NCBI GenBank assembly: GCA_021811235.1
Contig: JAJZPG010000007.1
Coordinates: 1-64,000, forward strand
From: Pseudomonadota bacterium
Lineage (GTDB): Bacteria; Pseudomonadota; Gammaproteobacteria; Burkholderiales; Thiobacillaceae
Direction of reading: 5' to 3'
DNA: 64,000 nucleotides
The translations under genes and the position numbers were made by a program. The notes below the pieces were generated by a model. That model ran no database searches, was not told where the DNA came from, and saw nothing but the letters and a program-made list of their open reading frames with translations. Shown here piece after piece: positions 685 to 11,016 of this stretch (positions are counted from its first letter, which is position 1; the number at the start of each line of letters is the position of its first letter).

Positions 685-699
685 ACCCTATTGTTCGTT

Positions 700-1914
700 T
701 CACCCGTTCATGGCGGACAACTCGACCAAGGCATTCACCCACTGCCGCACCAGCCTGCCGGTGCGGATAGCAATCTGTTCGATCTCGGCGTCGGTACACA
801 CCAGCGCGGGCAGCAGGCGGATGGTCCTGTCGCGGGTGACGCTGATGAGCAGGTTCTCATCGGCCAATGCCCGCTGCACCAACTCGTTGCATGGCCGATC
901 CAGTTCAATCCCGATCATCAGTCCGTGGCCGCGGATGGCAACTATGCCAGGGACGCCGACCAACGCCGCCTGCAGGCTTGTCAGCAGGCGGCGCCCGGCA
1001 ACTGACGCGCGCTCGGGGAGCTGGTCCCGCTGCATCACGTCAATGACCGTGCAACCTACCCGGCAGGCCAGTGGGTTGCCGCCGAAGGTTGAACCATGGT
1101 GGCCAGGAGAGAACAATTCAGCAGCCCGACCACGTGCAAGGCACGCGCCGATGGGGAATCCGTTGCCTAGCCCCTTGGCCAAGGTGATGACATCCGGCAG
1201 CACTCCGGCATGCTGGTAACCGAACCAAGTGCCGGTGCGGCCCATGCCTGTTTGCACCTCGTCCATCATGAATATCCAATCATTCTCGTCGCATAACACC
1301 CGCAAGGCGCGCAGGTACTCGGGGGAAGCGATGCGCACGCCGCCTTCTCCCTGCACGGGCTCGACCAGCACTGCAACGATGCCGGGTGAGCGCTTGGCCG
1401 CATGGCGGATTGCGTCAATGTCGTCATAGGGCACGCGCACAAAACCGGGCATCAGCGGCTCGAAGCCACGATGCACGGATGGGTTGCCGGTGGCGGCCAG
1501 TGTGGCGAATGTGCGGCCGTGGAAGCTGTTTTCCATCACCAGCACTTGAGGCTGCACAACCTGTTTGCAATTGCCGTGCAGACGCGCCAGTTTGAGCGCT
1601 GTTTCGTTGGCTTCCGCGCCGGAGTTGCAGAAGAATGCGGTTTCCATATTCGAGAGCGAGCAAAGTTGCTCACCCAGGCGCTCCTGCCACGCGATCGTGA
1701 ACATGTTGGAGGTATGCAGCAGTAGTCCGGCCTGATCGGCGATGACTCGGGCAATCTCAGGATGGGCGTGGCCCAAGTTGGTCACGGCCACGCCGGCGAT
1801 GGCATCGAGGTATTCGTGACCGTGCTCATCCCACAGGTGCGCCCCGAGTCCATGAGTGAATGAAACCGACTGACGCGAATAGGCTTGCATCAAGTGCCGG
1901 GTGGAAGTCTGCAT
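700..1914 (-). CDS. Class III PLP aminotransferase, ArgD-like
   Basis: This 404-aa protein is a fold-type I, class III aminotransferase of the acetylornithine/ornithine group. It would move an amino group from an omega-amino donor to 2-oxoglutarate. Visible marks are NSGAEANE (~97-104) for cofactor phosphate binding, MDEVQTGMGRTG (~217-228) and the Schiff-base lysine in ITLAKGLGNG (K247). It is the last gene of the minus-strand PLP/diiron cluster, 26 bases after the 79-aa gene. Because the neighbours handle vitamin B6 and amine oxidation, it may be a dedicated pathway enzyme and not the housekeeping ArgD. The substrate is not known. Confidence 0.8.
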   Translation of the reverse strand: MQTSTRHLMQAYSRQSVSFTHGLGAHLWDEHGHEYLDAIAGVAVTNLGHAHPEIARVIADQAGLLLHTSNMFTIAWQERLGEQLCSLSNMETAFFCNSGAEANETALKLARLHGNCKQVVQPQVLVMENSFHGRTFATLAATGNPSVHRGFEPLMPGFVRVPYDDIDAIRHAAKRSPGIVAVLVEPVQGEGGVRIASPEYLRALRVLCDENDWIFMMDEVQTGMGRTGTWFGYQHAGVLPDVITLAKGLGNGFPIGACLARGRAAELFSPGHHGSTFGGNPLACRVGCTVIDVMQRDQLPERASVAGRRLLTSLQAALVGVPGIVAIRGHGLMIGIELDRPCNELVQRALADENLLISVTRDRTIRLLPALVCTDAEIEQIAIRTGRLVRQWVNALVELSAMNG

Positions 1915-1940
1915 AACAGCACGTTCTCCAATTGGTTGAT

Positions 1941-2180
1941 TCAGGTGCCCAAGGCCACGGTCTTGAACTGGTATTCGATGCTCAACACCCGTATCCCGTC
2001 AGGGCTGCTTTCCAGCAGGCGGCGCTCGCCATCGGCGATCAGCAGTTCCAATTGGTAGCCATCGCCCGTGCCCAGTCGTGCGGCGATGTCCTCGACCGCT
2101 TCCCGCGACCAGGGGGTGCTGGATTCAAAATGGCCCAACAGCCTGTCGTAGCGGCGAATGATGAGTCGATAGGTGCGCAT
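1941..2180 (-). CDS. Small conserved-context protein of unknown function (79 aa)
   Basis: A 79-residue protein I do not recognise, starting MRTYRLIIRRYD. It has no cysteine, no signal peptide and no membrane segment. Alternating hydrophobic/charged runs suggest a small alpha/beta fold. It sits 4 bases after the pyridoxal kinase gene and 26 bases before the aminotransferase gene on the same strand, so it is very probably co-transcribed with them. A role as a small binding or accessory subunit is only a guess. Confidence 0.6.
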   Translation of the reverse strand: MRTYRLIIRRYDRLLGHFESSTPWSREAVEDIAARLGTGDGYQLELLIADGERRLLESSPDGIRVLSIEYQFKTVALGT

Positions 2181-2184
2181 GCGA

Positions 2185-3063
2185 TCATCCTGGACAAGAA
2201 GTGCGCCCCACCGGGGGCAGCATCAGTTCTGCGCAACATGTCCGGCGGGTGTGCTTGAGGGCAACGACGACTTGGTTGCAGGCTTGCGTGGCGGCCTCGA
2301 ATATCGAGTTTCCATCCAGAAGATGACCGGTCAGTGCGGCAGCGAACAGGTCGCCGGTGCCCTTGGGCGAGGTCGCGATGCGAGGGTGCTTCAAGACCCG
2401 TGTTTGGTCACGGGTGACGACGGCGACCTGCATCTCGGCAGGTGACAGGGCGATGGGTGTGGCACTAGTCACGGCCACCCATTGCGTACGCCCTGTCAAC
2501 AGCATTCGCGCGGCGGCGATAACGCTAGCGATATCGCCTGTGGGCTGACCGGTCAGGCGCTCAAGCTCGAAGCCGTTTGGCGTCAGGCCATGCGCCAGAG
2601 GCAGCAAGTGACGGCGATAGGCTTCGATCATGCCAGGATCGACATAGACTCCGTGGTCATGGTCCCCGATCACCGGATCAACGATCACCCGCAGGCTTGG
2701 CCGTTCGTCATGGAGATTACTAATCCAGCGGGCCAGCACCTCGGCTTGAGCCGGGTTGCCAAGATAGCCCAGCAGGATGGCTCTGGTCTGTCGCAGTGCA
2801 CCGCGAGCCGACAAATCCAACAGATAGCCGTTGAACCATTCCGTGGGAAGTGCCCCGCCGTGGATGGTCGGGTAATGAGGGGTGTTGCTGAGCATGACCG
2901 TCGGCACCGCCGCGGCGGTCAGGCCAAATGACTCCAAGATGGGGATGGCGACGTTGTTGCCGACGTGGCCATAGACCACCTGTGATTGCACCGACACGAC
3001 ATCGATGGGCAGCGGCCGCAATGCCGGGCTGGCCGCCGCATCGTTAAACAAGGTCCGTGCCAT
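2185..3063 (-). CDS. pdxY: Pyridoxal kinase, PdxY/PdxK-like
   Basis: About 292 aa of the ribokinase-fold pyridoxal kinase family, which phosphorylates pyridoxal with ATP to make PLP. Marks: [15 protein letters not shown] near the N-terminus, VIVDPVIGD in the middle, [12 protein letters not shown], and the GTGDLF anion hole with catalytic Asp near the C-terminus. I chose the ATG at 3063, which overlaps the amidotransferase stop (TGATG); a TTG one codon upstream is the alternative. Its place between an amidotransferase and an aminotransferase, with a PtsJ-like regulator nearby, points to cofactor supply for this cluster or to a B6-like substrate. Confidence 0.8.
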
Positions 3064-3782
3064 CAAGATGCCGATGCGCCCACAGTCGCCTCGATGCTAT
3101 CGAGCCAGGCTGTGAATACGCTGCGTGCCGCCAAAGAGAGCTTCGCTTCGAGTTCTCGTGCCTGGGCGCGCAGCGTGCGCGGATCGATAGCGGCCTGGGC
3201 CAGCTCGCAGGCATGGCCGACCAACCAACGTTCGATCAACCGGGGGTCGGCCTCCAAATGGAACTGCAGCCCCAACACCCCCGGACCCTGTGTGAAAGCC
3301 TGGTTCGCGCCTATCGCCGTGCTCGCCAATCGTGCGGCGCCGGGCGGAATGTCAAACTGGTCGCCGTGCCAGTGCAGCACCGGCGTATCGCCCAGCGACG
3401 CCAGGACGGACGTGCGGCCGTTGTTTGTCAGCGTAAGCGGCCCGAAGCCGATTTCCTTGTTACCCAAGGCATACACCGGAGCACCCAAGGTGCGAGCAAT
3501 CAGTTGGGCGCCCAGGCAGATGCCAAGAATGGGGCGTTTGCTTGCCAAGCGACGCTGTACGAGCGCCAGCTCATCAGCGAGGAAGGGGTATGCATTTTCG
3601 TCGAAGGCGCCAATGGGACCGCCCAACGCCACCAGCAGATCTGGCGTCTGCACGTCAAGCGCGGCGAGGTCTTCCACGGTGGCATCGACATATTGCACCG
3701 TGTAGCCGCGTTCATGCAGCAACGGCTCCAAGGTTCCAAGGTCTTCGAAATGAATGTGGCGGATGGCAACGGCTGATTTCAT
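3063..3782 (-). CDS. Class I glutamine amidotransferase domain protein
   Basis: A 239-aa stand-alone GATase1-fold protein, similar to the GuaA amidotransferase half but without a synthetase domain. The triad is visible: nucleophile C89 in GICLGAQ, and H175 and E177 in LQFHLE. Proteins of this type release ammonia from glutamine for a partner, or act as gamma-glutamyl hydrolases. Its stop overlaps the kinase start, so the two are translationally coupled; the reductase gene ends 62 bases upstream. It may pass ammonia to, or remove a gamma-glutamyl group from, the cluster's product. The partner is unknown. Confidence 0.75.
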
Positions 3783-3844
3783 CGGTATGTCCTTAATCGT
3801 GTAGATGTGTGGGTGGGGCTTCGCATCCTGTTAGAAGCGCAGCA

Positions 3845-4891
3845 TCAACGTGTGGCGTGCAGCGCGATGGTGATGTCTCCAGACTTCGGGAACGTGCAGC
3901 AAGCCAGCGCATGGCCGTTGGCTCTGTCTCCTTCGCTGAGGCAAAAGTCTGGCTCGAACCGGTAGTTCCCCGAGATGATCCTGAGACGACAAGCCCCACA
4001 GATACCAGAACGGCATTGGCTTCTTATAGGAATGTTGTTGGTCTCCAGATTCTCGAGGATGCTTTTTCTGGTATCCGCTTCGATCGCACAGCCGGTCTCC
4101 GCGAGCAGTATCCGTGCGCAGGTAGGGGACACCTGAGGCGATTCCCTTGGCGAGGGCGGCGGTGTGAAGGATTCTGCGAACAAGCGTGCGCCTGGAAACC
4201 GATGGTTTACGCGCTGCCGGAACTCATGAGCGAATGTGCGACTTCCACAGATCACAACCGCATCGGGTTGCTGCAGGGCTTCCAAAGACTGGTCGGTTGG
4301 ACGCCCCGGCTGGAAGTGGGTGCATGCCTGGATATCTTCACGGGTGACGAACACGCGGAAGGTGAACCATTCTGTGGTGAGATCTAATTCGAGCAATTCG
4401 TGGAGAAACGGTACGTCTCCGACACGCGGGAAGCACAGCAGTAAGGTGACGGCTGGTACGTGCTTTCCGCTTCGCGACAGCGAGGCGAACTCTCGAATCA
4501 GGGCCATCGGCAAGGTTATGCCAATGCCGCCAGCCAGCATCGCGACCCTGTGGAAATTGCTGATCGATGCCACGGTGACGGTACTGGCTGCATACTGAAG
4601 CGGAATAATCGATCCCTCCTTCGCAGTCGAATGCAAATAGTCAGATACGCCATGATGTCCGGTCCTCTTAACCGCAATTTCGAAGAGATCGGGCTCTTTC
4701 TTGCGTGTGATCGAATAAAGCCGCTGCTGAGGTGTGCCTGAGAAATCGGGATAGCGAATGGCCACATGTCCGCCGGGCTGGAGCGCATTGAGGAACCCGG
4801 CGTCGGCGTCGCTGGCGCGTAGCGCGAAGACCTTAACGCCACCGGCCTCTGCGTGCATATACTCGCAGCGGGCCTGGATGATCTGGTTCAT
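3845..4891 (-). CDS. Flavin/2Fe-2S oxidoreductase, phthalate-dioxygenase-reductase type
   Basis: A 348-aa electron-transfer protein with an N-terminal flavin domain (RLYSIT near residue 60), an NAD-binding domain (GGIGITLPMALIREF, ~120-135) and a C-terminal plant-type ferredoxin domain. The ferredoxin domain has C-x4-C-x2-C in QCRSGICGACR plus a further Cys near the end. This is the order found in vanillate demethylase and phthalate dioxygenase reductases. The start ATG overlaps the stop of the diiron oxygenase (ATGA), so the two are coupled. It most likely carries electrons from NAD(P)H to that oxygenase. Confidence 0.82.
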   Translation of the reverse strand: MNQIIQARCEYMHAEAGGVKVFALRASDADAGFLNALQPGGHVAIRYPDFSGTPQQRLYSITRKKEPDLFEIAVKRTGHHGVSDYLHSTAKEGSIIPLQYAASTVTVASISNFHRVAMLAGGIGITLPMALIREFASLSRSGKHVPAVTLLLCFPRVGDVPFLHELLELDLTTEWFTFRVFVTREDIQACTHFQPGRPTDQSLEALQQPDAVVICGSRTFAHEFRQRVNHRFPGARLFAESFTPPPSPRESPQVSPTCARILLAETGCAIEADTRKSILENLETNNIPIRSQCRSGICGACRLRIISGNYRFEPDFCLSEGDRANGHALACCTFPKSGDITIALHATR

Positions 4892-5859
4892 ATACGTACC
4901 CCTTTTCCTTCATGTTTTATATGGGCTGAAGCGACCAGGGAGTGAATTTGCCCGCTGCGGGCGAGCCCGACCCGGTCAATAAGGCTTTCAACTGAGTCTG
5001 TGTAAACGTTGATCTCATTGCTGTCGCCAGTGTCGTGCAAGATGTCCCGAGCGCGGGGAAAGTTCACCATCGAGAACACGGTGGCCCAGGCACCAAGCTC
5101 GTTATTGGCAAACATCTGGACGGTCTGGAGAATCACCGATCGCAGATACTCGCGTTCGTTACTGCTGAGACCTTGAACGATGTCGGTGGCGACGAAACTG
5201 AAGACACTCGAATGACTCCATTCGTCCATCGCGTGGGTCTTGGTAACCTCATGGCAAACCCTCTGGATTGAGCTGTCTTCAGCCAGTGTCTTGAGGTAGT
5301 CGGTGATCAGCGTCTCGCTGGCGCAAGCAATGGCGAAGCGGGTCAAACGGCGTTCCCATTCAGCATTACACGTGCTGAGGACGTTGTTGCGCCACTGCAC
5401 CAGGTTGAAATCGGCGAAGTCCAGTGGCGGGATGCCACGCATGTCGTATATGTAGTTGCAGGCCAGCATGGACATCCGAGTATGCAAAGCCTCATCCAGC
5501 AAGGCTTCCGACATCACATCCTGCAACAAGACTCGATTGTTGCTGATCGGAGGCGTCTTGATGATGTCCTCGCAAGCAGGCGTGACCACATTGCATTCGA
5601 TATAGATGGTTTTCAGGTTGTAGATACCCCAAGCGTAGGAAAGACACCTCGACTTGAGTTCTTCGGGCGCATCGAGCCATGCTGGGTGGTCCCGGAATGG
5701 CAATAAGGAGACGCAGAAGTCCTGCTTTGATGGATCGAACGTCAGACTCGAATAGTCGAGCGGTTCCTGATTGACCGCCGCGCGGCTTTTCCAAAGCACA
5801 GATAACTTCTTTAGCATGCTGGCGACGCCAGCTTCTTGTTCAACGTTTACTCGTTCCAT
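4888..5859 (-). CDS. AurF-like diiron N-oxygenase
   Basis: A 323-aa protein of the AurF/CmlI family, non-haem diiron enzymes that oxidise aryl or alkyl amines to hydroxylamine, nitroso or nitro products. All seven expected metal ligands can be placed with AurF-like spacing: E88, E123 and H126 (DEALHTRM), E182, then H209, E213 and H216 in HAMDEWSH. Family-typical text such as LDYSSLTFDPSKQDF (~34-48) and LLPFRDHP is present. Its stop overlaps the reductase start, giving a two-component oxygenase. No NRPS, PKS or pABA genes lie nearby, so the substrate is open. Confidence 0.8.
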   Translation of the reverse strand: MERVNVEQEAGVASMLKKLSVLWKSRAAVNQEPLDYSSLTFDPSKQDFCVSLLPFRDHPAWLDAPEELKSRCLSYAWGIYNLKTIYIECNVVTPACEDIIKTPPISNNRVLLQDVMSEALLDEALHTRMSMLACNYIYDMRGIPPLDFADFNLVQWRNNVLSTCNAEWERRLTRFAIACASETLITDYLKTLAEDSSIQRVCHEVTKTHAMDEWSHSSVFSFVATDIVQGLSSNEREYLRSVILQTVQMFANNELGAWATVFSMVNFPRARDILHDTGDSNEINVYTDSVESLIDRVGLARSGQIHSLVASAHIKHEGKGVRI

Positions 5860-5981
5860 ATCTCGACTCCAATCTTGATCGCACAGGTGGGATGTAGCTT
5901 TTCAGCGGATAGGCGGCCTCTCGGTCACGGATGTCAACCACGCTTGGGCCGGAAAAGGCGAGGCGACAGTTGGGTGAAGCA

Positions 5982-6857
5982 TTAGGGTTTCCATTCAGTG
6001 CTAGGCGAAGCAGCAGGCCAGAAATGACTGTCGGGTAAGGGACGGGCACCATAAATAGCCTGGCCGACACGAACGACCGTGGCGCCTTCCTCAATGGCAA
6101 TCTCGAAGTCGCCAGACATACCCATCGACAGCTCATTCATCTCAATGCCCGCGGGTATGTCCTGACACAGGCGATCGCGCAGCGTACGCAGGAGGACGAA
6201 ACAGGCCCTAACCCTCAAGGTGTCATGGGCCAACAGGGCCAAAGTCATCAGGCCGCGGACGCGCAGGGCAGAAAAGGTTGGCAATTTGTGCACGAATGCC
6301 TGTACGTCTTCCGGAGGCAAGCCGTACTTGCTGGCCTCCCCTGAGGTGTTGACCTGAACGAACACGTCGAGCGAGCGACCTTCAGCCTGCAGGTGGCGAT
6401 CCAGAGTCTCGGCCACGCGCAGGCTGTCAAGCGCCTGGAATTCCGTGGCGAAGCGGGCTACCAGCTTTGCCTTGTTGGTCTGCAGGTGCCCGATTACCGA
6501 CCAGTGCAAATCGGGTAGGTCGGCCATAGTCGACCACTTGCGGTGGGCCTCCTGTACCTTGTTCTCGCCCAGCAGTCGACAGCCGGCGGCATAAGAGAGC
6601 CGGATGCGCGCTTCGTCAACCGTCTTGCTGACCGGCAACAATCGAACTGTGGCCGGATCGCGGGCGACGCGACGGCATGCGTCTGCGATGCGTGTCTTGA
6701 CAACGCCGAGGTTGCGACGAAAGTCCTCGACGGTGTTGGCTTGCGGATACCGTGGTGGGGTGGCAAGCCATTCTTTAGTCTGTGGATCGTTCAAAATAGA
6801 GCCCTCCTCACTCCATGGGCCCGCCAGCCAAATTGCGGCTGAACAGGGGTTAGACAT
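5982..6857 (-). CDS. YggS/PROSC-family PLP homeostasis protein with N-terminal extension
   Basis: A 291-aa member of the YggS family, non-catalytic fold-type III PLP-binding proteins that buffer free PLP. The PLP lysine is K78 in LLPVSKT; GENKVQE, HWSVIGHLQTNKAK and ELSMGMSGDFEIAI are standard family motifs. The chosen ATG gives about 42 residues more than usual before the barrel. A later non-ATG start would remove this extension. It is the first gene of the minus-strand cluster, 122 bases ahead of the diiron oxygenase, and is divergent from the MocR regulator. Confidence 0.8.
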   Translation of the reverse strand: MSNPCSAAIWLAGPWSEEGSILNDPQTKEWLATPPRYPQANTVEDFRRNLGVVKTRIADACRRVARDPATVRLLPVSKTVDEARIRLSYAAGCRLLGENKVQEAHRKWSTMADLPDLHWSVIGHLQTNKAKLVARFATEFQALDSLRVAETLDRHLQAEGRSLDVFVQVNTSGEASKYGLPPEDVQAFVHKLPTFSALRVRGLMTLALLAHDTLRVRACFVLLRTLRDRLCQDIPAGIEMNELSMGMSGDFEIAIEEGATVVRVGQAIYGARPLPDSHFWPAASPSTEWKP

Positions 6858-6862
6858 CAGCG

Positions 6863-6903
6863 TATAATTGTTATGTGTCAAATTGTATATTGTCCTAGGA
6901 CAA
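6863..6903. promoter_or_regulatory. Divergent regulatory region with direct repeats and palindrome
   Basis: The space between the two divergent starts is only 47 bases. It contains two similar direct repeats, AATTGTTATGTGTC (6867-6880) and AATTGTATATTGTC (from 6881), then the perfect palindrome TTGTCCTAGGACAA at 6890-6903, ending one base before the regulator's ATG. TATAAT at 6863-6868 is a good -10 for the plus strand, with a weak -35 (TGAACA) 17 bases upstream. Direct repeats plus an inverted unit are typical of MocR operators, so autoregulation and control of the cluster are likely. Confidence 0.5.
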
Positions 6904-6904
6904 A

Positions 6905-8200
6905 ATGAAAATAACCGGAAGAACTGCCGCAGATATCTATGACAGCGTGCGCCTGTTGGTTCAATCAGGGCGATTGCGCCCAGGCCAGTCATTGCCGCCC
7001 GTGCGTAGTTTGGCAATGGAACTGGACGTCAACCGCAACACCGTGGCGGCAGCCTACAAGCGGCTGGTGGCAACTGGCATCGCGCTTGCCCACGGGCGAC
7101 TAGGAACGGTCATCCGCGAACAGCAGACACAGGGGGAGCAGGAAGGCGCGCTTCTTGGCACACCGCTGACCGATCTGGCGAGCGGCAATCCCAATCCGGT
7201 CTGGCTACCGGACATTCGAGAGGCCGTTGCCCGATCGTCATATCACCCGAGGTTGTACGGCGAGGCCACTGTCAACCCTGAACTCGAGGCCTATGGGAGG
7301 CAATGGTTTGCAGGTGATTGTCCGGAGATGTTTGAGATCGATCTCGCCCACGGTGCGGTAGATGCCGTCGAACGTCTGCTGGCTGCAAATCTGGTCGCGG
7401 GTGACAAGGTGGCAGTGGAAAACCCCTGCTTCCTCAGCAGCATTAGTACGCTCCGTGTTGGAGGGCTGGAGGCGGTCGGCGTGCCGGTGGACAGCGAGGG
7501 CATGCGTGTCGAGAGCCTGGAGGAGGCGCTGTCAGTTGGCGGGGCACAAGCGGTAATTTTAACGCCGCGTGCGCACAACCCCACCGGATGCAGTTTGAGT
7601 CCAGCGCGCGCCAAAGCGTTACGGCGGGTACTGGAGCGGTACCCTCATGTGCTGGTGATCGTCGACGATCATTTCGCGCTGCTGTCCGAGGCGGCGTATC
7701 ACTCTGTGATTCCCGCTGTGGCTCAGCGTTGGGCGCTGGTCCGGTCGGTCTCCAAGGTTCTCGGCCCGGATCTGAGGCTGGCGTTCGTCGCCAGTGACCA
7801 CCAAACATCTTTGCGGTTGCGACTGCGCCTGGCTTCAGGCACTACCTGGGTGAGTCATCTGCTGCAGGACATTGTTGCTGTGTGCCTGACATGCGAGACC
7901 CTCTCCTCGCGCGTCGCCCAGGCGAGACAGGACTATAGCCGTCGTCGTTCCTGGCTGGCGGCGGCTTTGGCTGATCACAAGATACCCGTCGCCACGCCGG
8001 CGGATGGCTTGAATCTATGGGTGCCGTTGAGACAGGACAGCCAGCCGGTTGTCTTCGCTTTGGCCAAACACGGTTGGCTGGTTCGCAATGGAGAGGCTTT
8101 TAGTGTGCGAGAAGTCATACCCGGTTTGCGCATCACGATTTCAGACCTGAACGAGGCCGACTCCAGGCGCTTGGCGCAGGATATACGGCATAGCCTATGA
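6905..8200 (+). CDS. MocR/GntR-family regulator with aminotransferase-like domain, PtsJ-like
   Basis: A 431-aa transcription factor: an N-terminal GntR winged helix (1-75; RPGQSLPPVRSLA and VNRNTVAAAYKRL) joined to a fold-type I aminotransferase domain (~90-431). The PLP lysine is retained (K284 in RSVSKVLG), with HNPTGCS and DDHFALL also visible. The N-terminal helix region strongly resembles PtsJ, which senses PLP and controls pyridoxal kinase in Salmonella. It is divergent from the cluster that contains a pyridoxal kinase, so it probably senses PLP, or a PLP adduct, and regulates that cluster and itself. Confidence 0.83.
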   Translation: MKITGRTAADIYDSVRLLVQSGRLRPGQSLPPVRSLAMELDVNRNTVAAAYKRLVATGIALAHGRLGTVIREQQTQGEQEGALLGTPLTDLASGNPNPVWLPDIREAVARSSYHPRLYGEATVNPELEAYGRQWFAGDCPEMFEIDLAHGAVDAVERLLAANLVAGDKVAVENPCFLSSISTLRVGGLEAVGVPVDSEGMRVESLEEALSVGGAQAVILTPRAHNPTGCSLSPARAKALRRVLERYPHVLVIVDDHFALLSEAAYHSVIPAVAQRWALVRSVSKVLGPDLRLAFVASDHQTSLRLRLRLASGTTWVSHLLQDIVAVCLTCETLSSRVAQARQDYSRRRSWLAAALADHKIPVATPADGLNLWVPLRQDSQPVVFALAKHGWLVRNGEAFSVREVIPGLRITISDLNEADSRRLAQDIRHSL

Positions 8201-8204
8201 GGAA

Positions 8205-8565
8205 CCCCCATGACAGGCAAGGCTCGGTGACAAAGACGCATGAGTCGGAGTGACCTGCGTGTGGTATGCCGCCATGGTCTGCGGAACCGATCCATTGTTA
8301 TCTTCGGGCCTATCCACGCCAACCGGGAAGCTGATACCGTATTCGTGCGCGAAGACACGCAGCCGTGACGGTCTAGCCTCCTGATGCTCGAACCTGTGTA
8401 CCGACCCACCACGACCACGTCTTGCGAGCCGAACAGTTCGTGCACCGCCTTCATTTGCGGAACCGCATGAACCACACAGCCGGGGCACAGCATCTGATGG
8501 CGCAGACGACCATGACGTAGCCGCGCTGCGCCTCCAGGTTCAGTGGAACCGGCATGTTCGGCCAT
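8205..8565 (-). pseudogene. Broken thioredoxin-fold (TlpA/redoxin-like) gene
   Basis: Two minus-strand frames together spell one protein. The first carries QMLCPGCVVHAVPQMKAVHE with a CxxC-type centre, then VVVVG. The next frame resumes with FEHQEARPSRLRVFAHEYG and FPVGVDRP, then TMAAY. This matches redoxin/TlpA-like proteins with a CPGC active site. At least one frameshift near 8400 joins the two parts, and the C-terminus is eroded towards the regulator gene. It would have encoded a thiol-disulphide enzyme and is probably no longer functional. Confidence 0.65.
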
Positions 8566-8615
8566 TGCGAAATGCGTCAGGGGGGCGCCAATGCGGGCTG
8601 ATTCACGGCGCGACC

Positions 8616-9092
8616 TCAGTCACGCAGCCGGCTGAAGGTATAGTCCTGAGCCTTTTGCGGCTGATGGCAGGCGAAGCAGGCCGAGGCCGCATTTGCGCCC
8701 ACCACCCGCTTGGCCGGATCACCGCCACCGAAGCCTTCGAAACCCCAGCCTCCGGTTGCCTTGAACTGCTTCGCATCCTTGTGCATCACGCCCACCACCT
8801 TGCGTGCGCCTTCCGTGACGGCATTGCCATCATTCACGGCTTCAAGCAGATCGAAGATGATGACCGAACCATCCGGAAAACTTTTACCCCGGTAGCCTTT
8901 CATGGCCTTGTCGTTGGCATAGATGTGGTGAATGCCACCGAAGGATGCGAACAGGGGATGTCTTTCCTCGATCACCATGCTCTTGATGTGATGCCAATCG
9001 CGGTAGCCCCCGGGATAGGGGACAGTGGGCTCGACCGCCAGCGCGGTTGTCGTCGCAGTCGTGCAAATCAAACTCAGAATACGTGCTTTCAT
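8616..9092 (-). CDS. Cytochrome P460-family protein
   Basis: A 158-aa exported haem protein. A short signal peptide (about residues 1-20) leads into a P460-type beta domain with GGYRDW, HHIYAND and FPDGSVI, and a C-terminal haem-binding CFACH (139-143). P460 cytochromes oxidise hydroxylamine and detoxify nitrogen species in the periplasm; related family members of unknown role are common. The start is placed at the ATG behind a strong GGAGGAG ribosome site, not at an earlier in-frame ATG. It follows the small thioredoxin-like gene by 13 bases and should share its MarR-type control. Confidence 0.8.
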   Translation of the reverse strand: MKARILSLICTTATTTALAVEPTVPYPGGYRDWHHIKSMVIEERHPLFASFGGIHHIYANDKAMKGYRGKSFPDGSVIIFDLLEAVNDGNAVTEGARKVVGVMHKDAKQFKATGGWGFEGFGGGDPAKRVVGANAASACFACHQPQKAQDYTFSRLRD

Positions 9093-9105
9093 GGTTGGCT
9101 CCTCC

Positions 9106-9342
9106 TTATTTGAGATCGGCAATGGCAGCGCCGAAGTTGATGTGAAACGTCTGTCCGGCGATGACCAGCGCAGGTACGGACTTCACTCCAACCGCTTCGG
9201 CCTCCGGGATGCGCGCCTTGGCTTCGCCCAAGTGGACGACCTCGAGGTCAAAGCGTGCCGGATCGATGGCGTCGGCGAGCTGTTGCTCGGCGGCGATACA
9301 GACGGGACAGCCGGCGTGATAAAAGGTGGCGGATGTTTTCAT
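9106..9342 (-). CDS. Small thioredoxin/glutaredoxin-like protein
   Basis: A 78-aa thioredoxin-fold protein with the redox centre CPVC at residues 12-15 and a cis-proline region (KSVPALV). It has no signal peptide. It probably reduces disulphides or handles a thiol adduct in the cytoplasm. It is the first gene of a two-gene unit with cytochrome P460, and its start codon lies directly beside an operator matching the one in front of the MarR gene. Confidence 0.72.
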   Translation of the reverse strand: MKTSATFYHAGCPVCIAAEQQLADAIDPARFDLEVVHLGEAKARIPEAEAVGVKSVPALVIAGQTFHINFGAAIADLK

Positions 9343-9343
9343 A

Positions 9344-9356
9344 TTAGGACTCCTAA
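9344..9356. promoter_or_regulatory. MarR-type operator, copy 1
   Basis: TTAGGACTCCTAA: arms TTAGG/CCTAA with a 3-base spacer, one base upstream of the thioredoxin-like start codon. The same arms and spacer occur at 10008-10018 in front of the MarR gene. A regulator bound here would block ribosome access or the promoter of the trx-P460 unit. Confidence 0.65.
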
Positions 9357-9410
9357 CTATATGGCCCGAAAGAAGCCCCGATCATATTGAACGGGGCGGT
9401 TAAACCGCCG

Positions 9411-10004
9411 TCAGGCGGCGGATTCGTGCTCCGCGCAATCGACCCGCAGGTGCCGTCCGGCCATTGGTGCGCGGACGAAAGCACAGAAATGCGGCATGCC
9501 CGTGCCCGGGGCGACGTTCTCGCGGAAATGCCTGCAGGTCACGCAGGTGCGCTGCGGCGCGATCAATTGGCGCTGCTGCAACTGCCGGATCATCTTGACC
9601 ACCAGCCCAAACAGCATTTCCTGCTCGGCCAGTGACAGGCCGGCCACGATCGGCGCGAAACTGCTAGGCCACGCCTGCGCGACCCGCTTGCCCTTGGGCG
9701 TCGCCTTCAAGGCGACCGCGCGACCGTCCGCGGCATCCGCGTACTTATGCACCAGTGCTTTCCTCTCCAGGGCCGTCACGGCATCGCTGGCCGTGGCCTT
9801 GCGGATGCCAGCGTGCGCAGCCGCATCGGTAAGCCGGGCGCCCTGCGGACGATTGGCGACGAAGCGCAGGATGTCGGCCTGAGTCGGAGACAAGCTGGCG
9901 GCCTCCGCCGCCTGCCAGTCGATCTGGCGGGCGACCGCGGCCAGCCGGGTAAGACCGTCGGACAGACGCCGATCCAGGGGCTCAGTAATTTGATCGAGGT
10001 CCAT
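9411..10004 (-). CDS. MarR-family regulator with Cys-rich C-terminal tail
   Basis: A 197-aa regulator: a MarR winged helix (~15-145, with LTDAAAHAGIRKATASDAV as the recognition region and an ADGRAV wing) followed by a tail with C154, C157 (CVTCRHF), C174 and C190. Ordinary MarR proteins are about 140-150 aa, so the tail is extra. Four cysteines in this spacing could bind an iron-sulphur cluster or zinc and sense redox or nitrosative stress. It lies upstream of trx-P460 on the same strand, with matching operators before both units, which argues for autoregulation plus control of those genes. Confidence 0.8.
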   Translation of the reverse strand: MDLDQITEPLDRRLSDGLTRLAAVARQIDWQAAEAASLSPTQADILRFVANRPQGARLTDAAAHAGIRKATASDAVTALERKALVHKYADAADGRAVALKATPKGKRVAQAWPSSFAPIVAGLSLAEQEMLFGLVVKMIRQLQQRQLIAPQRTCVTCRHFRENVAPGTGMPHFCAFVRAPMAGRHLRVDCAEHESAA

Positions 10005-10022
10005 AGTTAGGCATCCTAACTA
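10004..10022. promoter_or_regulatory. MarR-type operator, copy 2
   Basis: TAGTTAGGCATCCTAACTA is a perfect inverted repeat with 8-bp arms around a 3-base centre. It starts at the first base of the MarR ATG and runs upstream, so it overlaps the ribosome-binding region. The core TTAGG-N3-CCTAA is shared with 9344-9356. Confidence 0.7.
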
Positions 10023-10036
10023 ATGATCCATCAATG

Positions 10037-10282
10037 TCAAGCTGCGGATGTGTCCGCCGCTTCTCTCATATGGCAAAGTCTTGCTGTGGGTTCGGTCGGC
10101 GTCGCGAGTGAAGGTAGGCTGTAGTCAGGAAATACCAATTCCGGGTCCACCGATAGGCGAGGCATATCGCGAATGAACAGGTTGATCGCCGTGCCACCCT
10201 TGAGGGCGAATGTGTCATCTGAAAAGATGTGCGGGGCGACTTGGATCAGTAGGCGTGCGGTGTCGAGTTAGAGCTGATTCAT
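10037..10282 (-). pseudogene. AbiEii toxin (nucleotidyltransferase) remnant
   Basis: Starting at the ATG that overlaps the AbiEi stop (ATGA), the frame reads MNQL, then a TAA stop at codon 5, then LDTARLLIQVAPHIF, FALKGGTAIN and RDMPRLSVDPELVF. These are the N-terminal and GGT-containing parts of AbiEii nucleotidyltransferase toxins. Likeness ends after about 55 codons and the frame stops at 10037; the rest of the roughly 300-aa protein is missing. The toxin is inactivated both by the early stop and by the 3' deletion. Confidence 0.75.
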
Positions 10283-11016
10283 GGCTTGAGCACCAGCAGT
10301 CCGTCAGCCGAACGGGATACCCAAGCTCGGTCGCTGCCGGTCGGCAGTTGCGCGGCATCCAGTTTGGCGGCCCAGGGCAGGGCGAGTTCGCGTCCGAGTT
10401 GCAGGCACAGGCGCACTGTCTTTACGCTGGTGCAGCGCTGCAGCAAATCACGCAGCACATCGGCCCGTAGGCTATAGGCGCTCTCGGCGAGTTCGCGCGC
10501 CTCCTGCAACTGCTGACGCACACCTACCTCGCTGAGCACCTCCAGTAGCGCTCGCTCGGGTGTCGAGACCCGTGGCGCGCCGTCGCGCTTCTCGAACGGT
10601 CCAGCATGAAGCGGGTCGGCCGGCAGCTCGTCGAACAGGCGCTTGCGGTGGTACTCCGCCGGGAAGCGCTCAGTGAACCAGCCGGGGAGGCGGGCGGTTG
10701 TCCAGCCGTAGAGATGCAGAACTGGCTTCTGCGACAGGTACTGCCTCACACCGTACCAGTCGAGGGCAGATTTGCCGCCAACATGCAGTCCTTCGATGGA
10801 GCACTGCATCAGTACCAGACAGGCATGGAGATCCAGCGTATCGTTGGGCCGACGGTACACCCCGCGCGCCAAGCGGGAAAGCCAGCCGGCACGCGCGTAG
10901 TGGACGGCCAGGTCCGCGGAGACACCCAGTGCCGCCAGATCCTTCGACGTCAAGGGGGTTCCTGGTGCCCACTGCCGGTAGAGAGCGTTTAACTTGGTTC
11001 TTCCAGTCGTAGTCAT
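10279..11016 (-). CDS. AbiEi-family type IV antitoxin
   Basis: A 245-aa AbiEi-like protein with an N-terminal winged helix (LTSKDLAALGVSADLAVHYARAGWL, ~17-41; ARGVYRRP) and a C-terminal AbiEi domain (HVGGKSALDWYG, STPERALLEVLSEV). In intact systems AbiEi represses its own promoter and opposes the AbiEii nucleotidyltransferase toxin. Here the reading frame is full length while the toxin gene that overlaps its stop is ruined. It is now an orphan antitoxin, possibly kept as a repressor or as protection against related AbiE systems. Confidence 0.8.
   Translation of the reverse strand: MTTTGRTKLNALYRQWAPGTPLTSKDLAALGVSADLAVHYARAGWLSRLARGVYRRPNDTLDLHACLVLMQCSIEGLHVGGKSALDWYGVRQYLSQKPVLHLYGWTTARLPGWFTERFPAEYHRKRLFDELPADPLHAGPFEKRDGAPRVSTPERALLEVLSEVGVRQQLQEARELAESAYSLRADVLRDLLQRCTSVKTVRLCLQLGRELALPWAAKLDAAQLPTGSDRAWVSRSADGLLVLKP

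Follow-up and report, generated by a model that had tools for sequence, protein, structure and literature searches.

A probable dnf-type (Dirammox) gene cluster with dedicated pyridoxal phosphate genes in Thiobacillus

Gene content and identity of the cluster

The window analysed here is a stretch of 64,000 nucleotides (bases 1-64000 of contig C19) from a 2.85-Mb Thiobacillus genome. Between positions 700 and 8200 it carries seven minus-strand genes and a divergent ptsJ, probably a dnfABCD (Dirammox) cluster in which DnfA, DnfB and DnfC form hydroxylamine and the genes of vitamin B6 and pyridoxal phosphate (PLP) metabolism protect the cell. All eight genes are present with open frames, placed as in an initial annotation of this DNA, and Pfam and NCBIfam agree with the names given there. 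The first gene of the operon encodes a YggS-family PLP homeostasis protein (5982-6857; TIGR00044, 181 bits, cut-off 106). Its reading frame opens at 7016, but translation more likely begins at the ATG at 6857, which clears the divergent ptsJ. Then follow dnfA for an AurF-type diiron oxygenase (4888-5859; AurF PF11583, 170 bits, 6e-50), dnfB for an FNR-like reductase with a C-terminal 2Fe-2S domain (3845-4891; Fer2 PF00111, 2e-13; NAD_binding_6, 9e-5), dnfC for a class I glutamine amidotransferase (3063-3782; NF005458, 338 bits, cut-off 250) and dnfD for a pyridoxine/pyridoxal/pyridoxamine kinase (2185-3066; NF006034, 416 bits, cut-off 342; DnfD annotation in PMC9136411). An orphan gene for 79 amino acids (1941-2180) matches no Pfam or NCBIfam family. 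The last gene encodes an ArgD-type class III aminotransferase (700-1914; TIGR00707, 448 bits; Aminotran_3, 364 bits), like YggS a cluster-specific paralogue. Overlaps of four bases join oxygenase to reductase and amidotransferase to kinase; the remaining intergenic distances are small, with a maximum of 122 bases between yggS and dnfA. The plus-strand ptsJ (6905-8200) encodes a PtsJ-type MocR regulator (NF012025, 687 bits, cut-off 573), with 94% identity in the sister-genome locus L008 and 69% in Verminephrobacter (L025). Directly before it lies the perfect 14-bp palindrome TTGTCCTAGGACAA (6890-6903), one of 11 such palindromes in the window and unchanged in L008. It is a candidate operator of PtsJ.

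The genes dnfA, dnfB, dnfC and dnfD run uninterrupted from 5859 to 2185 in the published order; the Dirammox cluster of Alcaligenes is described as dnfT1RT2ABCD (PMC9136411, PMC9478400, PMC11440038). The ligands E88, E123, H126, E182, H209, E213 and H216 of DnfA all stand at the residue numbers reported for that protein (7/7; PMC9478400). In DnfC, Cys89, His175 and Glu177 are present. Cys, His and Glu make up the catalytic triad motif of class I glutamine amidotransferases. An AlphaFold model of DnfA reached a mean predicted local distance difference test score (pLDDT) of 60.8 and served for the fold match only. With this low-confidence model, Foldseek ranked the arylamine N-oxygenases CmlI and AurF first. 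DnfA shares their fold and the seven metal ligands, reported in print as identical, but differs in sequence (21-24% identity in the structural alignments) and in genetic context: an aminobenzoate-type or an NRPS- or PKS-linked arylamine pathway (nonribosomal peptide or polyketide synthesis) was not found among the ten proteins of 700-11016 scanned with Pfam and NCBIfam. Mangotoxin and the mgo and mbo operons, considered as the identity of the cluster, were dropped once dnf emerged.

The Thiobacillus cluster and that of Alcaligenes have in common the A-B-C-D order, the numbering of the DnfA ligands and attached PLP enzymes. Both include a MocR-family regulator, the one in the window being a possible counterpart of DnfR. 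The clusters differ in the aminotransferase SerC (DnfT1) and serine hydroxymethyltransferase (SHMT, DnfT2), both missing from the window. These two are treated here as accessories of dnf clusters, because the stretches fetched from Herbaspirillum and Verminephrobacter also lack both. Conversely, yggS, argD and the 79-residue gene lie inside the Thiobacillus operon, its regulator is of the PtsJ type, and genes for a cytochrome c'-beta, a CPVC-motif protein and a MarR regulator stand alongside. The Thiobacillus host also has RuBisCO of forms I and II. Its genome holds two large-subunit genes. The best solved matches of the first are RuBisCO large chains with 1svd, which we take to be form I, among the first; the best solved match of the second is 'Form II RubisCO' (5c2c). 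As for dnfA and Thiobacillus together, the available parts of the literature include one study that sought dnfABC in reactor genomes, found none, and names Thiobacillus in other contexts only.

Related loci and dedicated copies of the PLP genes

Eighteen related loci were obtained from a scan of genome contigs, and the fetched stretches, up to 10 kb on each side, were searched with the query set by tblastn. Reductase and amidotransferase occur in 18/18 loci (the reductase of L023 in two pieces) and YggS in 16/18, being missing in L012, a short stretch, and in L024. SHMT was found in 14, the ArgD paralogue in 13, SerC in ten and pyridoxal kinase in two of the 18. The locus of G235 (L026), fetched separately, contains ArgD, YggS, SerC, SHMT and kinase. 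Since ten of the 18 loci are from Pseudomonas and three from Delftia, the counts are not independent. The co-occurrence of the genes goes beyond chance. The relatives belong to Pseudomonas (including P. cedrina), Delftia, Verminephrobacter (V. aporrectodeae At4), Herbaspirillum and Xanthobacter; the dnfABC homologues named in the available text of PMC11440038 include P. cedrina, Delftia, Xanthobacter and V. aporrectodeae At4, among others. The loci found here are thus from the same species or genera as that list, with At4 itself among them. The oxygenase is rare closer to the host: 4/300 genomes of the order gave a match, the window's own included and one at only 29%, and within the family dnfA is confined to 2/117 genomes, the window's own and that of a sister species.

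All these genera share with Thiobacillus the core of AurF-type oxygenase, reductase and amidotransferase, and most of the loci the YggS gene. The ArgD paralogue is common to Thiobacillus, Pseudomonas and Delftia, and ptsJ to Thiobacillus and Verminephrobacter. Unlike Thiobacillus, the Pseudomonas and Delftia loci have two SHMTs, a BenE transporter, a PdxR-like regulator and an ABM protein, and those of Pseudomonas also SerC and, mostly, a carrier of the major facilitator superfamily (MFS). The Verminephrobacter oxygenase (L025, 10001-10940) lies in two frames, and the YggS stretch fetched from that genus (L047) was reported with one stop; either decay or sequencing error may be responsible. 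The Xanthobacter reductase (L023, 10963-11556) lacks its middle, about residues 99-258, and the L023 locus has two amidotransferases.

The initial annotation had proposed to check whether the neighbours of the oxygenase recur across genomes. Reductase, amidotransferase and YggS do, while most loci lack the kinase and PtsJ. This distribution bears on one of its suggestions, that a B6 vitamer or a PLP adduct is the compound oxidised. Kinase, YggS and PtsJ adjoin the oxygenase in Thiobacillus, but two of these three are missing from most relatives, the nitrogen route runs via glutamine, and no B6 compound appears in the available parts of the published DnfA assays. A B6 substrate is therefore very improbable. 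The broader claim that B6 functions belong with the oxygenase is borne out by the recurrence of YggS and by separate groups of YggS and ArgD.

Twelve genomes were searched for YggS at E 1e-15. Eleven hold two copies, one linked to dnfA and one elsewhere; the twelfth, represented by L18, has a single unlinked YggS with 38% identity to the window's. Linked copies reach 54-89% (54-80% in other genera) and unlinked copies 34-43%. The YggS tree has 24 rows, and a branch with an SH-aLRT (Shimodaira-Hasegawa-like approximate likelihood ratio test) support of 99 separates all 12 linked copies from the others; the linked rows comprise 11 copies with dnfA and one from the variant locus L132 described below, and two Xanthobacter rows are long. 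The ArgD search (E 1e-100) gave a match in 10/12 genomes. Linked ArgD copies of other genera share 69-74% identity with that of the window, whereas unlinked ones reach 48-59%, the host genome's own other argD (54%, contig C17) included. The nine linked rows of the 17-row ArgD tree, eight with dnfA and one from L132, are likewise set apart by a branch (support 98). A similar division applies to SHMT: the dnfA-linked copies from four Pseudomonas genomes, Delftia and G235 are 72-100% identical to the Pseudomonas query and other SHMTs 51-58%. A second SHMT lies near ArgD in 6/6 of the genomes with a dnfA-linked SHMT.

Transferred block, cytochrome and a variant without dnfA

The cluster lies within a block (689-10117) with a guanine-cytosine (GC) content of 59.8%, compared with 64.8% for 10118-64000. 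This block aligns at 90.6% to the sister genome G387 of the same genus. Nothing else above 100 bases aligned when window positions 1-22000 were compared with 19.9 kb of sister sequence (L133), the left flank measuring 688 bases. Together with the presence of dnfA in only two genomes of the family, this agrees with the earlier suggestion of accessory DNA, and the block was probably acquired by transfer. A search of viral contigs gave no match. A gene for an AbiEi-type antitoxin is found at 10279-11016, just outside the block common with the sister genome.

Three further minus-strand genes are included in the block. A MarR-type regulator (9411-10004) has no NCBIfam match and is 86% identical to the MarR of L132, itself a Pfam MarR match. 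The small CPVC-motif protein (9106-9342), recognised by its sequence motif and again without NCBIfam match, is presumably thioredoxin-like, as judged by motif only; its gene adjoins the cytochrome gene in L133, L132 and L109. The cytochrome (8616-9122, start probably at 9092) belongs to PF16694, named 'Cytochrome_P460' in Pfam. Its best solved match is cytochrome c'-beta (6hih, 3e-53), compared with 2e-11 for McP460 (6hiu), and the substitutions in the cytochrome c'-beta structures F32V and F61V fall at the positions of its Phe51 and Phe80. A hydroxylamine-oxidising cytochrome P460 was rejected on account of the closer c'-beta match and of phenylalanine at both positions of the Phe cap, an assignment made without direct alignment to McP460 at the heme-crosslinking lysine column. 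Binding of nitric oxide (NO) is therefore the most that is claimed, and the cytochrome may buffer NO. A strict tie to dnf was also discarded: of 117 genomes of the family, 26 have the cytochrome (E 1e-10) and two have dnfA. The link is therefore local, consisting of the 9.4-kb block common with the sister genome and a variant in G361.

G361, of the same genus and 98% complete, gave no dnfA match at E 0.001. Its contig C123 (L132) encodes counterparts of ArgD (62%), the 79-residue protein (48%), the amidotransferase (65%) and YggS (68%). The 79-residue protein, 90% identical in L008 and L133, is thus kept in both Thiobacillus cluster types. At 5003-6847 of L132, an M24-family (pita-bread) metalloprotein and a different 2Fe-2S reductase replace the pair of AurF-type oxygenase and reductase. 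Another MocR regulator and the inverted block of MarR, CPVC-motif and cytochrome genes follow; a TrbI conjugation gene lies at the other end. The trio of M24, reductase and MocR genes recurs in L150 and L151, without amidotransferase or YggS. M24 as a general dnf partner was rejected, as none of 13 other M24 loci (L150-L162) has amidotransferase or YggS in the fetched stretch. All 13 M24 rows of an alignment, L132 included, share two Asp, one His and two Glu, which we take to be the M24 metal ligands. The G361 pair is hypothesised to replace DnfA and DnfB in function, with the M24 protein as a candidate for a new N-oxygenase. Among the titles listed in a literature search for an M24 or pita-bread oxygenase, nothing to the point was found. 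A wider proposal is speculative and unlikely: hydroxylamine production would be coupled to a portable PLP-defence kit with parts exchanged between lineages, the N-oxidising pair would be swappable as well, and M24 would represent a new fold for N-oxidation.

Hydroxylamine formation and protection of PLP

Published work on Dirammox, as far as its available parts go, assigns a product to the core genes. Escherichia coli carrying dnfABC forms hydroxylamine from ammonia and requires glnA unless glutamine is supplied, and deletion of dnfA in A. faecalis abolished hydroxylamine formation from amino acids (PMC11440038). Glutamine and its gamma-hydroxamate are both reported as substrates that DnfC hydrolyses (PMC11440038, PMC9478400, PMC11160463). 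The initial annotation had described a cluster of unknown product, a description superseded by the dnf identity and the hydroxylamine made via glutamine in E. coli. The oxygenase thus belongs to a pathway already known, an outcome that the annotation had named as refuting its own reading, even if the precise substrate of DnfA is still disputed in the literature available. Purified DnfA binds hydroxylamine and converts it to N2, and it does not bind ammonia (PMC9478400). These properties would suit a cluster that removes hydroxylamine, with DnfA chiefly a hydroxylamine oxidase forming N2 and the PLP genes repairing damage from hydroxylamine made elsewhere. Such a role is improbable in view of the dnfA deletion and of E. 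coli with dnfABC, a producer of hydroxylamine; it would also leave DnfC without a role.

For hydroxylamine production by the Thiobacillus cluster, the following route can be proposed. DnfA, with electrons from DnfB, would N-oxidise an amide nitrogen derived from glutamine. DnfC would free the product as hydroxylamine, which DnfA could take on to N2. Hydroxylamine formation and its oxidation by DnfA are published for Alcaligenes, and the division of labour among the three proteins has been proposed for that genus; both would extend to Thiobacillus by homology. Free hydroxylamine forms an oxime with PLP. The available text of PMC11557217 describes stable oximes of enzyme-bound PLP with O-substituted hydroxylamines. 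Because hydroxylamines trap PLP in this way, the B6 and PLP genes may serve as protection. Pyridoxal kinase (DnfD) would regenerate PLP lost to hydroxylamine, and the dedicated YggS would buffer and deliver PLP. A PLP enzyme that takes part in amino acid synthesis would be provided in an additional copy, ArgD in Thiobacillus and SerC and SHMT elsewhere. The MocR/PtsJ regulator could read the PLP level. In addition to the oxime chemistry and the dedicated YggS and ArgD groups, expression in A. faecalis points to protection: yggS rose about tenfold, from 207 to 2028 transcripts per million, in nitrifying cells under conditions that raise dnfABC (PMC8629993, as available). According to PMC11440038, it is not known how A. 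faecalis withstands the hydroxylamine that it makes, which leaves room for the protection idea. A literature search for dnfA together with pyridoxal found no such proposal in the parts available; the DnfR paper (PMC8939314) might hold one.

A different function would be the synthesis of a small N-O secondary metabolite, a hydroxamate or an aminooxy amino acid, with a skeleton built by the aminotransferase, or by SerC and SHMT elsewhere, and hydroxylamine as a by-product. A secondary metabolite is argued for Alcaligenes by the authors of PMC11160463, and it gains from a Pantoea agglomerans plasmid locus (L007, 9417-15200), the fourth gene of which is a DnfA homologue with 66% identity. This locus has six genes on 5,784 bp with 41.87% GC and a ferredoxin-type reductase in fifth place. 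The antibiotic cluster PNP-2 is published as six genes on 5,784 bp with 41.89% GC and a ferredoxin reductase, pnp2E. From size, gene number, GC content and fifth gene we infer a match of L007 to PNP-2; its DnfA homologue suggests an N-oxidised group in that antibiotic. The Pantoea and Thiobacillus loci share the oxygenase followed by a 2Fe-2S reductase. They differ in that Pantoea has an ATP-grasp protein, an arylamine N-acetyltransferase, a hydrolase and an MFS carrier where Thiobacillus has the amidotransferase and PLP genes, and neither amidotransferase nor YggS was found near the oxygenase in the fetched stretch. Against a metabolite from dnf clusters, A, B and C are constant but the PLP enzymes vary by lineage (ArgD, SerC, SHMT or none), so that interchangeable protection suits better than a fixed pathway. 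These enzymes moreover score as ordinary housekeeping families, dnfABC is reported to be enough for hydroxylamine in E. coli, and no ligase, NRPS or PKS family was matched among the ten proteins of 700-11016. A secondary metabolite is, on balance, an unlikely product, if less so than the removal of hydroxylamine is an unlikely function.

Several points weigh against hydroxylamine production with PLP protection in Thiobacillus. The cluster is known here from its genes, and its function would follow by homology; likeness to Alcaligenes was judged from published order, annotation and residue numbers. The action of DnfA on glutamine itself is disputed (PMC11440038), and the authors of PMC11160463 take the aminotransferases and SHMT to hint at a biosynthetic pathway, both in the parts available. 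The AurF tree, which has very long outgroup branches, places the Pantoea oxygenase among the rows of dnf type; 'dnf' is therefore not one clade, and group membership alone is no proof of Dirammox. The accessory genes are also inconstant. The window gave no match to SerC or SHMT, L024 lacks YggS in the vicinity of dnfA, and searches of Herbaspirillum and Xanthobacter at E 1e-100 yielded no ArgD paralogue. Among nine genomes, pyridoxal kinase is linked in four (two Thiobacillus, G235 and Xanthobacter), unlinked in three and not found at E 1e-10 in two. The MocR regulator is of the PtsJ subfamily here, and the Pseudomonas-type regulator scores as PdxR-like. In A. faecalis, yggS (AFA2_00794) and dnfABC (AFA2_03346-48) have locus tags far apart (PMC8629993, as available), so yggS is outside the dnf cluster.

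If the proposed function is true, hydroxylamine would be formed from organic nitrogen in a Thiobacillus with RuBisCO of forms I and II, beyond the heterotrophs described in the publications available. Protection of PLP would offer a testable explanation for the survival of cells that make hydroxylamine and for the presence of PLP enzymes and a pyridoxal kinase in the cluster. Defined genes for such tests are provided by the YggS and ArgD groups dedicated to the cluster and by the M24 exchange in G361.

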